Below, piece after piece: positions 3 to 32,945 of a stretch of DNA of 64,000 nucleotides (its first letter is position 1; the number at the start of each line of letters is the position of its first letter). The position numbers were made by a program, and so were the translations under genes. The DNA is from Methanosarcina sp. MSH10X1 (GTDB lineage Archaea; Halobacteriota; Methanosarcinia; Methanosarcinales; Methanosarcinaceae), in NCBI RefSeq assembly GCF_004099695.1, contig NZ_SCHL01000006.1, forward strand, positions 124,001 through 188,000, read 5' to 3'. The notes under the pieces are model-generated. The model was not told the origin of the DNA and made no database searches. It saw nothing but the letters and a program-made list of their open reading frames with translations.

Positions 3-944
3 AGGAAATTCTCAAAATACGACCCGTTAAATATCGCATCTATCTATGGCGGTGTAGGGATCAATTCACAAATTAAAGAATTAAAGAATGCCGAGGTTGT
101 TGTGGGAACACCCGGTAGGCTACTCGATCATATCAGCAGAAATACTATCAAATTGAATAATATGAAAACCCTTGTCCTTGATGAGGCAGACCATATGTTT
201 GATATGGGATTCAAAGTGGATGTAGAAAAAATTATCAAGGAATGTCCTCAAAACAGGCAGACCCTTTTGTTCTCTGCGACCATTACAAAAGATATTGTCC
301 GGCTTTCCCGCAAGTACATGGAAAACCCGGTTCAAGTATCAACAGAGTCTTATATCGACCCGCAAAAATTGAATCAGGTCGTTTATAAAGTACAGGATGA
401 CATGAAATTATCTCTGCTCGTGTACCTTCTGCAAAATGAGAAGTCAACCCTCGGGATGGTTTTCTGCAACACAAAAAGAAATACTGACAAAGTCGCAAAA
501 AACCTGAGAAAATCAGGTATCAATGCCGTGGCAATTCATGGCGGATTGACACAGAACGAACGAACTCGCATAATGGAAAAATTCCACTCCGGGAACATAG
601 GAGTCCTTATATGTACGGATGTAGCCGGAAGAGGTCTTGATATACAGGGTGTTTCCCATGTTTACAATTATGATATTCCCAGGGAGAGTAAACAGTATAT
701 TCACAGGATTGGAAGAACTGCACGAGCAGGAACAGAAGGAAAAGCGATAAATATCCTTTCCAGAAATGACCATGCTAATTTCATGAGTGTACTGAAAGAC
801 AATGATGTAAATATTAAGGAACAGGCACTACCTGCTCTGAAGAAGATTGTAATTGAAAGACCGGAAATAAGATTGCCAAAGCCGGTAAATAGGATGAACA
901 ACCCCTCCAGAAAAGGTAATAAACCGAGGCACAAAAACTGTTAG
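3..944 (+). CDS. DEAD-box ATP-dependent RNA helicase, 5' end cut by window
   Basis: ATP-dependent unwinding or remodelling of RNA. The frame is open from base 3, so the start and the Walker A motif lie outside the window. Visible motifs in order are GG (YGG, near base 48), TPGR (bases 108-119), DEAD (VLDEADHMF), SAT (LLFSATI), and the second RecA domain with VFCNTK, TDVAGRGLDI and the HRIGRTARAG motif VI. A short basic tail rich in K/R/N follows. The protein ends at TAG. Methanosarcina relatives of this type are often cold-inducible helicases acting on structured mRNA or rRNA (family knowledge); nothing here shows the specific target. An internal GTG at 102 falls within the VVGTPGR strand and is not the true start. 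Confidence 0.95.
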   Translation, partial: RKFSKYDPLNIASIYGGVGINSQIKELKNAEVVVGTPGRLLDHISRNTIKLNNMKTLVLDEADHMFDMGFKVDVEKIIKECPQNRQTLLFSATITKDIVRLSRKYMENPVQVSTESYIDPQKLNQVVYKVQDDMKLSLLVYLLQNEKSTLGMVFCNTKRNTDKVAKNLRKSGINAVAIHGGLTQNERTRIMEKFHSGNIGVLICTDVAGRGLDIQGVSHVYNYDIPRESKQYIHRIGRTARAGTEGKAINILSRNDHANFMSVLKDNDVNIKEQALPALKKIVIERPEIRLPKPVNRMNNPSRKGNKPRHKNC

Positions 945-29458: not shown

Positions 29459-29921
29459 CTAAATGCCTCCTGTTCATCTTCTAGAGTTTTCGTAGTTGGG
29501 GTTCTCTAAAACTGGGGTTCATGAGGTAGCTCATGAGATTAAAATTGCCGGGGATATATTATATTTAAAAATATATAATAGTTGGCGGGAAATGTATTGG
29601 CTGGCTCCAAAAAAAGAGGTTTGACAGACAATTTATTCTATTATAAGATATTTTTTATTATATAACATAGAATGAAATATATTATGCATAATATAACTCG
29701 TGCAATAATATTATGCATTATATTACTGCAATTATATTATGCATATAACTACTGCAATTATATTATGCATATAACTACTGCAATTATATTATGCATATAA
29801 CTACTGCAATTATATTATGCACATAACTACTGCAATTTTCGGTTAATACGGAAATTTCCGATTATATGATTTTATATACGTATTCAGTAACAGATTCTTC
29901 TTAAATGATGGGGGGTCAAAT
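29459..29921. other. Divergent intergenic region with TATA-rich stretches and a tandem array
   Basis: It carries the promoter side of the HyuA pair and of the subtilase. It is very AT-rich (ATATATAAT runs near 29560-29580 and 29640-29680) and is dominated by the 26-nt array at 29690-29836. GGGGGGT at 29910-29916 lies 5 bases ahead of the ACG proposed as subtilase start. Confidence 0.6.
29690..29836. repeat. 26-nt tandem repeat array upstream of subtilase
   Basis: About five copies built on ATTATGCATATAACTACTGC followed by AATTAT; the first copies are degenerate (TGCAATAATATTATGCATTA), the central ones identical. Each unit contains the palindrome ATGCAT. The array ends about 85 bases before the subtilase start. 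Confidence 0.9.
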
Positions 29922-31421
29922 ACGTCTAGAAAGAAATCTGAGTTTCCTGTAGAGCCTGCTGTCCGTAAGGATGGAACAAAAGAAGGCGAAGTTGTTAGTT
30001 TTGAAGCGTTAATCCGCAGTAAAACGGATATTTCCATGTTTGAGCCCGGCCAATTTTTGACGCCGGAAAATATTGAGGAATTTATTCCTGAAGGCGGAGC
30101 AACCCAGAAAGCCGCCAAAATCTTTCAGGATATGGGCTTCAGAATTATCCATGTCGGGGTGTTCAGCGTCAGTGGGGAAGCTACCAGGGATCTTTGGGAG
30201 AGCACGTTCAATACCGAAGTTAAGAAAGTTACAGTTCCGGCAGATAATATTCATCCTGAGCGGGGAAAAAGAGTCTTCCTTTCTAACGTTGCCGGGGCTC
30301 CTTTTGAGATCCCTGCGGAAGTATCCGATCTGGTTGAAAGAGCTTACCCGCAAAAACCTCCGGTTTTTTTCGGATCTCCCCTTCCTCCTATCGTATCTTA
30401 CCATTGCCTGAATGTTCCCGGTGACATATCTATGCTGCTTCGGGCTGGAAGGGTCAACCAGGAAGGAATTACCGGTAAAGGTGTTCTGGTAGCAATGCCG
30501 GATACTGGTTTTTACGCTCACAAGTTTTACGAATGGAGGGGGTATAATTACAACAGGACCATAGCTGAAGATGCCGTAGATGTGGATGTTGATAATAACG
30601 GGCATGGGACTGCAGAGGCTGCTAATATATTTTCATCGGCTCCGGGCATTGATTTTGTAGGCATAAAGATGGGACTTAATCCAACGCTTGGCTTCAAAAA
30701 GGCAATGGATCTCAGTCCAGCAGTTATTAGCTGTAGCTGGGGATGGGATATCAGGGAACGGTCTCTACCAAACTGGCTGAAGCCGCTCGAAGCCGCAATA
30801 ATTTACGCAGTAAGGAAACTGGGAATAACCGTCGTGTTCTCGGCAGGGAACGGGCATTACGGGTTCCCAGGTCAGATGCCTGAAGTTATATCTGCCGGTG
30901 GTGTTTATGTTAGCAGGAAGCTTGCGGGAGACGATTTTGAGTTTAAAGCATCCGACTACGCTTCAAGTTTCACCAGCCCTATTTATCCTGGCAGAAGGGT
31001 ACCGGATGTATGCGGCCTTGTAGGTATGAAGCCAAATGCCATTTACATAATGCTGCCTGTCCAGCCGGGATGCTCAATTGACAGGGAGCTGGCAGCGGGA
31101 GGTGCTCACCCGAACGGTGATATGACAGAATCTGAGGACGGATGGGCGGCAATAAGCGGAACCAGTGCGGCAGCTCCGCAAATTGCGGGCGTGTGTGCTC
31201 TCTTAAAGCAGGTACAGCCGTCTTTATCGCCTGAATTGATAAAACAGATCCTGATCGCATCGGCAAGGGATGTCAGGGAGGGTGAAAGTTCTATGGGCGA
31301 TACTGCAGGTAAAGGGTTTGACAGTGCTACCGGAGCAGGGCTTGTAGATGCCTACAGTGCATGCAAACTTGCCCGGTCAATCATGGTAAGACCAAGGTTT
31401 ACGGTTCCTCCGCCAATGTAA
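29922..31421 (+). CDS. Subtilisin-like serine protease (S8) with N-terminal propeptide
   Basis: About 499 residues if started at ACG 29922 (SRKKSEFPVEPAV...). The catalytic triad is visible: D194 in AMPDTGFYAH, H228 in NGHGTAEAA, S415 in GTSAAAPQIAG; the oxyanion Asn lies in FSAGNGHYG. Residues ~45-145 form a propeptide-like domain (ATQKAAKIFQDMGFRIIHVG ... PQKPPVFFGSP). No signal peptide is evident, so it may be intracellular or exported by another route. The first ATG in frame (30036) would cut 38 residues of clearly coding sequence. It ends on a hairpin and converges with a small gene encoding a propeptide-like protein. Confidence 0.92.
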   Translation, partial: TSRKKSEFPVEPAVRKDGTKEGEVVSFEALIRSKTDISMFEPGQFLTPENIEEFIPEGGATQKAAKIFQDMGFRIIHVGVFSVSGEATRDLWESTFNTEVKKVTVPADNIHPERGKRVFLSNVAGAPFEIPAEVSDLVERAYPQKPPVFFGSPLPPIVSYHCLNVPGDISMLLRAGRVNQEGITGKGVLVAMPDTGFYAHKFYEWRGYNYNRTIAEDAVDVDVDNNGHGTAEAANIFSSAPGIDFVGIKMGLNPTLGFKKAMDLSPAVISCSWGWDIRERSLPNWLKPLEAAIIYAVRKLGITVVFSAGNGHYGFPGQMPEVISAGGVYVSRKLAGDDFEFKASDYASSFTSPIYPGRRVPDVCGLVGMKPNAIYIMLPVQPGCSIDRELAAGGAHPNGDMTESEDGWAAISGTSAAAPQIAGVCALLKQVQPSLSPELIKQILIASARDVREGESSMGDTAGKGFDSATGAGLVDAYSACKLARSIMVRPRFTVPPPM

Positions 31422-31469: not shown

Positions 31470-31763
31470 TTAGAAGTATTCGGGCGGTTCGGGGAAGAAA
31501 ATTTCTTTAATAAAGAGTTTAAATTCCTCAGGAATTAAGGGTTGTGTGACAGGTCTGTAATACTCTACCATTGAGTCAGTGAGACCTGGAAGCACGGACT
31601 TGGAGGTTTTTTCCAGCTTCATATTAAAAAAATCTTCAAATTTTTCCGGAGAGCCTTTAATTGTGATTGTTTCACCAATTGAGAGAATATCAAATCCCTG
31701 CTCTTGTAGTTTCAAAGCAACAACATTTTTATTTTTAACAGGAATTACGTCGGCTGTTAGCAT
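31470..31763 (-). CDS. Free-standing propeptide-like protein beside the subtilase
   Basis: 97 residues. The segment VVALKLQEQGFDILSIGETI / TIKGSPEKFEDFFNMKLEK aligns by eye with the subtilase propeptide AAKIFQDMGFRIIHVGVFSV / SGEATRDLWESTFNTEVKK. Its tail PLIPEEFKLFIKEIFFPEPPEYF matches PFEIPAEVSDLVERAYPQKPPVFF of the protease. This is a ferredoxin-like beta-alpha-beta propeptide fold without a protease. By analogy with I9-type propeptides, it could inhibit or help fold the neighbouring enzyme (inference). A TATA box lies about 24 bases before the ATG, so the mRNA is probably leaderless. The genes converge. Confidence 0.75.
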   Translation of the reverse strand: MLTADVIPVKNKNVVALKLQEQGFDILSIGETITIKGSPEKFEDFFNMKLEKTSKSVLPGLTDSMVEYYRPVTQPLIPEEFKLFIKEIFFPEPPEYF

Positions 31764-31776
31764 ATAATTTATTCAG

Positions 31777-31796
31777 AGTCCAATATATATAGGACT
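31777..31796 (-). promoter_or_regulatory. TATA box flanked by an inverted repeat, leaderless promoter
   Basis: On the minus strand AGTCC-TATATATATT-GGACT: 5-bp inverted arms enclosing the TATA element, centred about 24 bases before the ATG at 31763. Occupancy of the inverted repeat would block TBP access, a plausible operator. Confidence 0.55.
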
Positions 31797-31987: not shown

Positions 31988-32066
31988 CGGGTTAATCCGG
32001 GGAATTGGACGAGCTAATCCGGGAATTAATTCAGCCAGCTGGAAATTGGCTGGGTTAGTCCGGGAA
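31988..32066 (+). promoter_or_regulatory. Three direct repeats ahead of the second toxin/antitoxin pair
   Basis: GGGTTAATCCGGGGAATT, GAGCTAATCCGGGAATTA and GGGTTAGTCCGGGAAATG occur in series at about 31989, 32011 and 32052. Evenly oriented repeats just before an antitoxin gene are typical operator sites for antitoxin autoregulation (inference). Confidence 0.45.
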
Positions 32067-32294
32067 ATGGTTAGACGGACGTATGAATTGAGCGAGTTGA
32101 TGAGTATGATACTTGAAGAAGTATTCAACCAGCTGAAAGAGCTTGAAAAGAAATTCAATGAGGTAAAATATCCTCCTGAAACTGCTTTTCAGCCATCCTT
32201 TTCCTCTAAAATCCGGAAAGCGGAAAAGGACAGTTTACTCCACCGTCTGCCTGCCCTGGAGCTTGATGAACTTCTGGAAAAGGTAGAGGAATGA
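32067..32294 (+). CDS. Antitoxin-like small protein
   Basis: About 75 residues (MVRRTYELSELMSMILEEVF NQLKELEKKFNEVKYPPETA): a helical N-terminal part then a proline-containing linker and an amphipathic C-terminal helix (KAEKDSLLHRLPALELDELLEKVEE). It is adjacent to a RelE/ParE toxin with an ATGA overlap, the usual antitoxin-first order. The DNA-binding family is not clear to me. TTG 32046 and ATG 32100 are alternative starts; no clean ribosome binding site decides among them. Confidence 0.65.
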   Translation: MVRRTYELSELMSMILEEVFNQLKELEKKFNEVKYPPETAFQPSFSSKIRKAEKDSLLHRLPALELDELLEKVEE

Positions 32295-32572
32295 CATACA
32301 AAGTAGCGCTTCACCCCTCAGTCCGCAGAAACCTTAAAAAATTGTATCGGCTTGACAGGCCAGGCTACAATTATGTGAAAGACCGCCTCCGCCTTCTTGC
32401 TTACATGCCGGAAATGGGCGTTCCCCTCAAAACCGGATTTGAAGGAAAATGGAGAATTCATATCGGTCCCTTCGTGCTGGTCTATACTTTCGACAAAGCC
32501 ACTAACGTCATTACCCTTCTGGTTTTTGAACATTATACAGAGGCATATGACATATATACCGCATATGCGTGA
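32291..32572 (+). CDS. RelE/ParE-type toxin (second pair)
   Basis: 93 residues: MTYKVALHPSVRRNLKKL..LDRPGYNYVKDRLRLLAYMPEMG, VPLKTGFEGKWRIHIGPFVL and VYTFDKATNVITLLVFEHYTEAYD. The order of helix-helix-four-strand sheet with a central RIH(I)GPFVLVY strand and a closing HYTEAY motif is that of RelE/ParE toxins acting on translating mRNA or on gyrase. Its ATG overlaps the upstream stop by four bases (ATGA), so translation is coupled. It is unrelated by simple eye comparison to the pair at 1.3-1.8 kb beyond the family fold. Confidence 0.85.
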   Translation: MTYKVALHPSVRRNLKKLYRLDRPGYNYVKDRLRLLAYMPEMGVPLKTGFEGKWRIHIGPFVLVYTFDKATNVITLLVFEHYTEAYDIYTAYA

Positions 32573-32589
32573 GGTCAACAAAACCCCGC

Positions 32590-32945
32590 AAGCCTTTTCA
32601 AGAAATAGCTTGACCGCAAGCCTTTTCAAAAAAGGCTTGAGCGAAAACTTTTTCAAAAAATCCTTGACCGCAAGCCTTTTCAAAAAATCCTTGACCGCAA
32701 GCCTTTTCAAAAAAGGCTTGAGCGAAAACTTTTTCAAAAAAAGTTTGATCAAAAACCATGCTTTATCTAAGCCGATGTAACCGGAGCGTGATAAACCGGC
32801 GCAACGGTTTCAACACAAGCCTTTTCAAAAAAGGCTTGAGCGAAAACCTTTTGAGAAAAGGTTTTATCGAAAACTCTGATGTATCTGAACCGGTGTAACC
32901 GGAGCGTGATCGACCGGCGCAACGGTCGAGGCACAACGGTTTGTT
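32590..32945. repeat. Hairpin-forming repeat cluster
   Basis: About eight copies of a 30-nt module alternating AAGCCTTTTCAAAAAAGGCTT (a self-complementary hairpin of 9-bp stem), AAAACTTTTTCAAAAAA and TCCTTGACCGC, followed by two copies (near 32765 and 32885) of a longer block containing GTAACCGGAGCGTGAT and CCGGCGCAACGGT. It fills the space between the toxin and the metallopeptidase gene; open frames through it are repeat artefacts. Confidence 0.85.

Follow-up and report, generated by a model that had tools for sequence, protein, structure and literature searches.

Subtilisin propeptides fold their proteases, and the propeptides of Tk-subtilisin and BPN' end in the P1 residue, which is bound in the active site. 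Propeptides also inhibit in trans at nanomolar concentrations or below, and the C-terminal tails of YIB2 and POIA1 influence the potency of these proteins (PMC10580911). Stand-alone propeptide-like proteins that inhibit subtilases are known from yeast, Pleurotus, Arabidopsis, Toxoplasma and Plasmodium, and the gene for the Plasmodium protein adjoins subtilase genes (PMC6993865). All the stand-alone inhibitors of this type that we found in the literature are eukaryotic, and our text searches, whose reach into subscription journals was limited, returned no description of a prokaryotic stand-alone prodomain family. Here, we describe a two-gene pair that recurs in many archaea and bacteria and points to a dedicated inhibitor of an apparently intracellular protease.

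The pair lies in a 64,000-nucleotide stretch of Methanosarcina sp. MSH10X1, called the window below. The relevant features are as follows:

29910 to 29924, + strand: SD-like G-run with the probable ACG start of the subtilase, judged from the same G-run and ACG at the homologous place in Methanosarcina sp. KYL-1
29922 to 31421, + strand: S8-family subtilase with N-terminal prodomain, 499 aa if started at ACG 29922, first in-frame ATG at 30036 (PF00082, E 1.2e-21, above cut-off; open frame; AlphaFold2 pLDDT 92)
29991 to 30371, + strand: subtilase prodomain, homologous to the small protein by sequence and profile comparison, ending at the predicted cleavage site PPVFF/GS
30474 to 31337, + strand: Peptidase S8 catalytic domain with Asp at 30501-30503, His at 30603-30605 and Ser at 31164-31166, a triad invariant in 41 relatives
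31470 to 31763, - strand: standalone propeptide homologue of 97 aa with ATG start, a predicted inhibitor (homologues at 45 of 50 subtilase loci including the window; purifying selection)
31473 to 31493, - strand: C-terminal tail PEPPEYF of the small protein, predicted to act as a product-like tail in the active-site cleft (aligned with the prodomain end PQKPPVFF; model residue 97 meets the last residue of the Tk-subtilisin propeptide (5..69) and BPN' prosegment (7..77) chains)
31784 to 31792, - strand: TATA box-like CTATATATA of the small gene, its centre about 24 nt before the ATG

The two genes are convergent, with 48 bp between their stop codons (31419-31421 for the subtilase, 31470-31472 for the small gene). 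Methanosarcina sp. KYL-1 has a small-protein homologue of 67% identity, also convergent on a subtilase that is 74-75% identical. In the comparison of both small genes, pN was 0.19 and pS 0.77; since pN is far below pS, the small ORF is a real gene under selection at the protein level. The TATA box reported in an earlier note on this DNA is indeed present, CTATATATA being found in a single copy in the window, where 0.52 copies would be expected by chance anywhere. A leaderless transcript of the small gene is plausible but unproven, since relatives have no counterpart of the box at the same position. Beyond the small gene, two small overlapping ORFs at 32046-32572, the second one matching ParE_toxin (E 8.5e-8), probably form a toxin-antitoxin pair adjoining the protease pair, and repeat units like aagccttttcaaaaaaggcttgagcgaaaac occupy 32580-32930, between these ORFs and a gene for a YgjP-like metallopeptidase.

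Ahead of residue 39 of the subtilase there is no in-frame ATG, and no in-frame GTG or TTG precedes 30036 either, though the frame is open and conserved there. Relatives of the subtilase have a complete first prodomain strand, and a Methanotrichaceae relative carries an ATG after GGAGG at the place homologous to ACG 29922, which is the probable start. A frameshift at the G-run after an ATG at 29905/29908 could also explain the missing start codon and was set aside as less likely, since the G-run together with ACG recurs in KYL-1. A weak start at ACG could hold the protease level below that of the inhibitor. D194, H228, S415 and the oxyanion Asn N310 were invariant in 41 members of the family, which makes the enzyme an intact member of Peptidase S8. 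Peptidase S53 (sedolisin, with a Ser-Glu-Asp triad) was considered for the protease and ruled out, because the Asp is invariant and so is the His of GHGT; the likeness to S53 is limited to the prodomain. By 15-residue mean hydropathy with a cut-off of 1.6, a crude test of localisation, no subtilase of the set has a signal-peptide-like hydrophobic stretch, and among the standalone proteins only that of locus L063 (1.62) touches the cut-off. Since such a stretch is missing, both proteins are probably cytosolic.

The small protein was compared with the prodomain at increasing depth. Direct BLASTP against the adjacent subtilase gave a weak match (19% identity over 83 aa, E 0.024), collinear right up to the last residues of the small protein at its C-terminus, where PPEYF is aligned with PPVFF. 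A phmmer search with the small protein as single sequence against all ORFs of the gathered loci matched not only the small ORFs next to the proteases but also prodomains of subtilases (L045, E 6e-5; L065, E 4e-4). Comparison of a profile of 42 standalone proteins with one of 38 prodomains gave a probability of 99.5% and an E-value of 4e-23, the latter to be taken with care as both sets came from one iterative search. For that reason, the independently built Pfam family PF09286, which matches 14 of 42 standalones and 9 of 41 prodomains, and a profile match to kumamolisin (1t1e, E 9e-4) are useful controls. PF09286 is the only Pfam family recurring among members; its matches to the standalones were counted at E up to 1, the best being 6.5e-5, and the window protein itself is not among them. 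Searched alone, the small protein gave nothing informative in Pfam, NCBIfam or PADLOC, and no match in genome_contigs, viral contigs, phages or plasmids. These comparisons confirm that the small gene is a conserved homologue of the N-terminal prodomain of the neighbouring S8 subtilase, as had been proposed for this 97-residue convergent gene. The label "I9-type" given to it has to be replaced, as Inhibitor_I9 (PF05922) matches none of the 42 members at E up to 1; the small protein is nearer to the S53/pro-kumamolisin prodomain and should be called a pro-kumamolisin-like member of what is probably the same fold.

The AlphaFold2 model of the small protein is confident (pLDDT 91). VIA-align matched it to the prodomain of pro-kumamolisin 1t1e with Z 9.0 (89 residues, 2.8 A) and to TPP1 with Z 8.0, which assigns it to the prodomain fold. 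The Tk-subtilisin propeptide (Z 6.7) and the BPN' prosegment (Z 5.5) followed; a Z of this size may reflect a mere common arrangement, and a Z under 8 is weak by itself, although for the small protein sequence and context agree with it. With Foldseek alone nothing was found for this model at E <= 0.001, the best match being the PCSK1 prodomain (0.23). For the whole-subtilase model, the best Foldseek match is pro-kumamolisin (E 6e-20). The docking of the prodomain seen in 1t1e was not reproduced in this model, the whole-chain superposition having an rmsd of 27 A, so that the model gives no firm position of the prodomain relative to the catalytic domain.

All four VIA-align matches extend to model residue 96 or 97, and F97, the final residue of the small protein, falls at the C-terminal end of the Tk-subtilisin and BPN' propeptides. 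Of 45 standalones, 30 stop at the position aligned with the prodomain end, or one residue past it (..PPEYF-stop versus ..PPVFF/GSPLPP), while eight (Massilia, some Alphaproteobacteria and L057) extend 4-13 residues beyond the P1-equivalent position; for seven of the 45 the best matches were fragmentary and the offset was not properly computed.

To see how far the arrangement extends, 50 loci, the window's own and those of 49 relatives, were gathered from the protease sequence alone (L066 falls outside the family). In an iterative search, a separate standalone homologue was found beside 45 of the 50 family subtilases. In Massilia sp. H-1 (L054, 3230-5359) the standalone gene lacks a stop and runs in frame into the subtilase, giving an open frame of 710 aa; in L058 the homologue sits on another contig, and three family genomes have a prodomain and no standalone. 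The set spans Methanobacteriota, Bathyarchaeota and Thermoplasmatota, and among bacteria Cyanobacteriota, Deinococcota, Actinomycetota, Planctomycetota, Nitrospirota, Bacteroidota, Rhodothermota, Pseudomonadota, Gemmatimonadota, Thermodesulfobacteriota and Myxococcota, so that the pairing is wider than the earlier reading of one sequence could see. Moorena and Massilia are over-represented, and locus counts are therefore not counts of independent events. Among the 45 pairs, the small gene lies upstream on the same strand in 24, downstream on the same strand in 14 and convergent in 7. As gene order varies, tail-to-tail placement is not essential, and its interpretation as a device for playing the expression of one gene against the other is not supported. 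ORF clustering revealed no third gene common to the loci, mostly shadow ORFs and Massilia synteny being recovered.

Within Methanosarcinaceae, the small gene was found only alongside the subtilase (the window's own genome, KYL-1 and the divergent pairs of G085 and UBA10923), and all Methanosarcina genomes in which a family subtilase was found have the small gene, and none has it without the subtilase. The structural match between the small protein and the prodomain region, seen in the confident model, the profile comparison and VIA-align, and the co-occurrence in Methanosarcina were thus both found, so that neither outcome which the earlier note had named as speaking against its reading (no such match, or a small gene missing whenever relatives have the subtilase) occurred. 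Sampling of 393 genomes from the phylum gave three with the pair and a fourth (G216) with a marginal partial match. Of 17 genomes of Massilia, the genus of L046, 12 have both genes and 5 neither; in 299 genomes of Streptosporangiales, the order of L025, an adjacent pair was found in eight, the other matches lying within longer frames. In a genome-wide survey of 16 genomes, none had more than a single standalone or more than a single prodomain. A pair is also carried by a Calothrix plasmid typed as mobilizable, and no match to the subtilase was found in viral contigs and phages.

Two groups at the margin of the family were also observed. In a divergent branch (L059, 3995-7639; L060, 1410-5117; L061; Methanosarcina UBA10923 and Deltaproteobacteria), the subtilase has a long C-terminal Cys-rich repeat (CYRAPICYRAP.., CLRGPIQ..) and is followed by a radical SAM/SPASM-like protein and then by the standalone prodomain, the intervening gene being seen directly in L059 and L060; the arrangement resembles a peptide-modification operon that would act on the repeats of its own protease. 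On plasmids of Rhizobium and Aminobacter (L094, L096), more distant subtilases with a prodomain, weak in Aminobacter, lie in purine/folate-like biosynthetic gene clusters and have no standalone homologue alongside. The pairing rule is therefore limited to the family studied, and, given also the three family members without one, a standalone is not obligatory.

A tree of 80 domains, whose deep forks are poorly resolved, separates standalones and prodomains mostly into mutually mirrored subclades, with 5 label changes versus 26.9 after shuffling. Standalone distances are correlated with catalytic-domain distances (r 0.67) and with prodomain distances (0.76), at values that none of 2000 permutations attained. 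This fits one or more old duplications, after which the two genes would have been inherited together and transferred as one unit.

Taking the computed homology, fold, linkage, co-inheritance, P1-equivalent end and intact catalytic triad together, we consider it quite likely that an S8 subtilase, probably cytosolic and bearing a pro-kumamolisin-like prodomain, is accompanied by a dedicated inhibitor acting in trans, namely the adjoining separate copy of the prodomain fold. The docking, inhibition and regulation that we infer would proceed as follows. The cis prodomain would assist folding of the subtilase and then be cut off; the standalone would dock on the surface of the catalytic domain that the cis prodomain had used, and its C-terminal tail PPEYF-COOH, aligned with the predicted cleavage site of the prodomain itself, would enter the substrate cleft like a bound product. 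A separate gene could thereby keep the protease silent after maturation, with activity set by the ratio of the two proteins.

A broader proposal, which we put forward tentatively and hold to be rather unlikely, is that the pair constitutes a horizontally spread prokaryotic regulatory or conflict module, in which the cytosolic subtilase is held inactive by the co-diverging free prodomain until a trigger (stress, attack or loss of the inhibitor) releases it to cut cellular proteins. Such a module, with its effector role, would be a prokaryotic counterpart of the stand-alone propeptide inhibitors of eukaryotes.

It is unlikely that the small protein serves as a trans chaperone for the catalytic domain, or as a stabiliser of the precursor, rather than as an inhibitor. 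The fold and linkage data are identical to those behind the inhibitor reading, co-inheritance would also fit a chaperone or an activator, and the upstream co-directional order in 24 of 45 pairs would suit a chaperone made first. However, downstream and convergent orders are frequent, and a second chaperone would be redundant, as each protease already has its own prodomain. Mainly because the standalones end at the P1-equivalent position, which suits inhibition, the product-like inhibitor is preferred. Thus, of the two roles initially offered for the small protein, that of inhibitor stands as the best reading, and that of folding partner has become less likely in view of the protease's own prodomain.

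We assign a similarly low likelihood to an immunity or antitoxin function, in which the protease would act as a toxic effector, either sent into competing cells or set free under attack, and the small protein would protect the producer from it. The patchy distribution in the sampled phylum, the spread over many phyla and onto the mobilizable plasmid, and a precedent proposed for protealysin and emfourin (PMC9505478) would agree with it. Nevertheless, neither protein has a segment resembling a secretion signal, no delivery genes are common to the loci, phage and viral collections gave no match, and the PADLOC matches are generic subtilase domains only; moreover, immunity would itself be a sub-case of inhibition. 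That the small gene is a decayed, functionless duplicate of the prodomain, as its low identity to the prodomain might suggest, is hardly credible given a pN much below pS, a linkage recurring over great phylogenetic distance, a confidently folded model and an old origin.

Pairs of a protease gene and a putative inhibitor gene occur in at least a dozen prokaryotic phyla, so that the sequences allow cognate partners to be predicted and then tested individually. The pairing also offers a probable function for small ORFs annotated as "hypothetical protein", as is the case in the Calothrix pair, and reveals a pro-kumamolisin-like prodomain in the service of S8 enzymes.

Among known systems, SUB1-ProM of Plasmodium, a potent and selective SUB1 inhibitor, is likewise a stand-alone propeptide-fold protein encoded beside subtilase genes (PMC6993865); it is, however, eukaryotic and has a secretory signal, whereas the present family is prokaryotic, has no signal peptide, is pro-kumamolisin-like and is paired across many phyla. 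The MEROPS I9 stand-alones (yeast Pbi2/IB2, Pleurotus POIA1 and Arabidopsis SPI-1; also TgMIC5) probably share the overall propeptide fold, and the tail matters for their potency (PMC10580911). In contrast to these eukaryotic proteins, the family described here has no Pfam Inhibitor_I9 match, and its genes adjoin and co-diverge with that of the protease. PF09286 of the S53 sedolisins and TPP1 provides the best structural match to the small protein, but there it is the N-terminal part of S53 enzymes, while in the present family it also occurs as a separate gene, and the protease carries the S8 triad of Asp, His and Ser. Emfourin is not known to have a related fold or to be a copy of a prodomain, and its target protealysin is an M4 metalloprotease. 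Nevertheless, the protealysin-emfourin operon of Serratia resembles the arrangement proposed for our pair in that an intracellular protease is encoded beside its own inhibitor, with emfourin binding the active-site region (PMC9505478).
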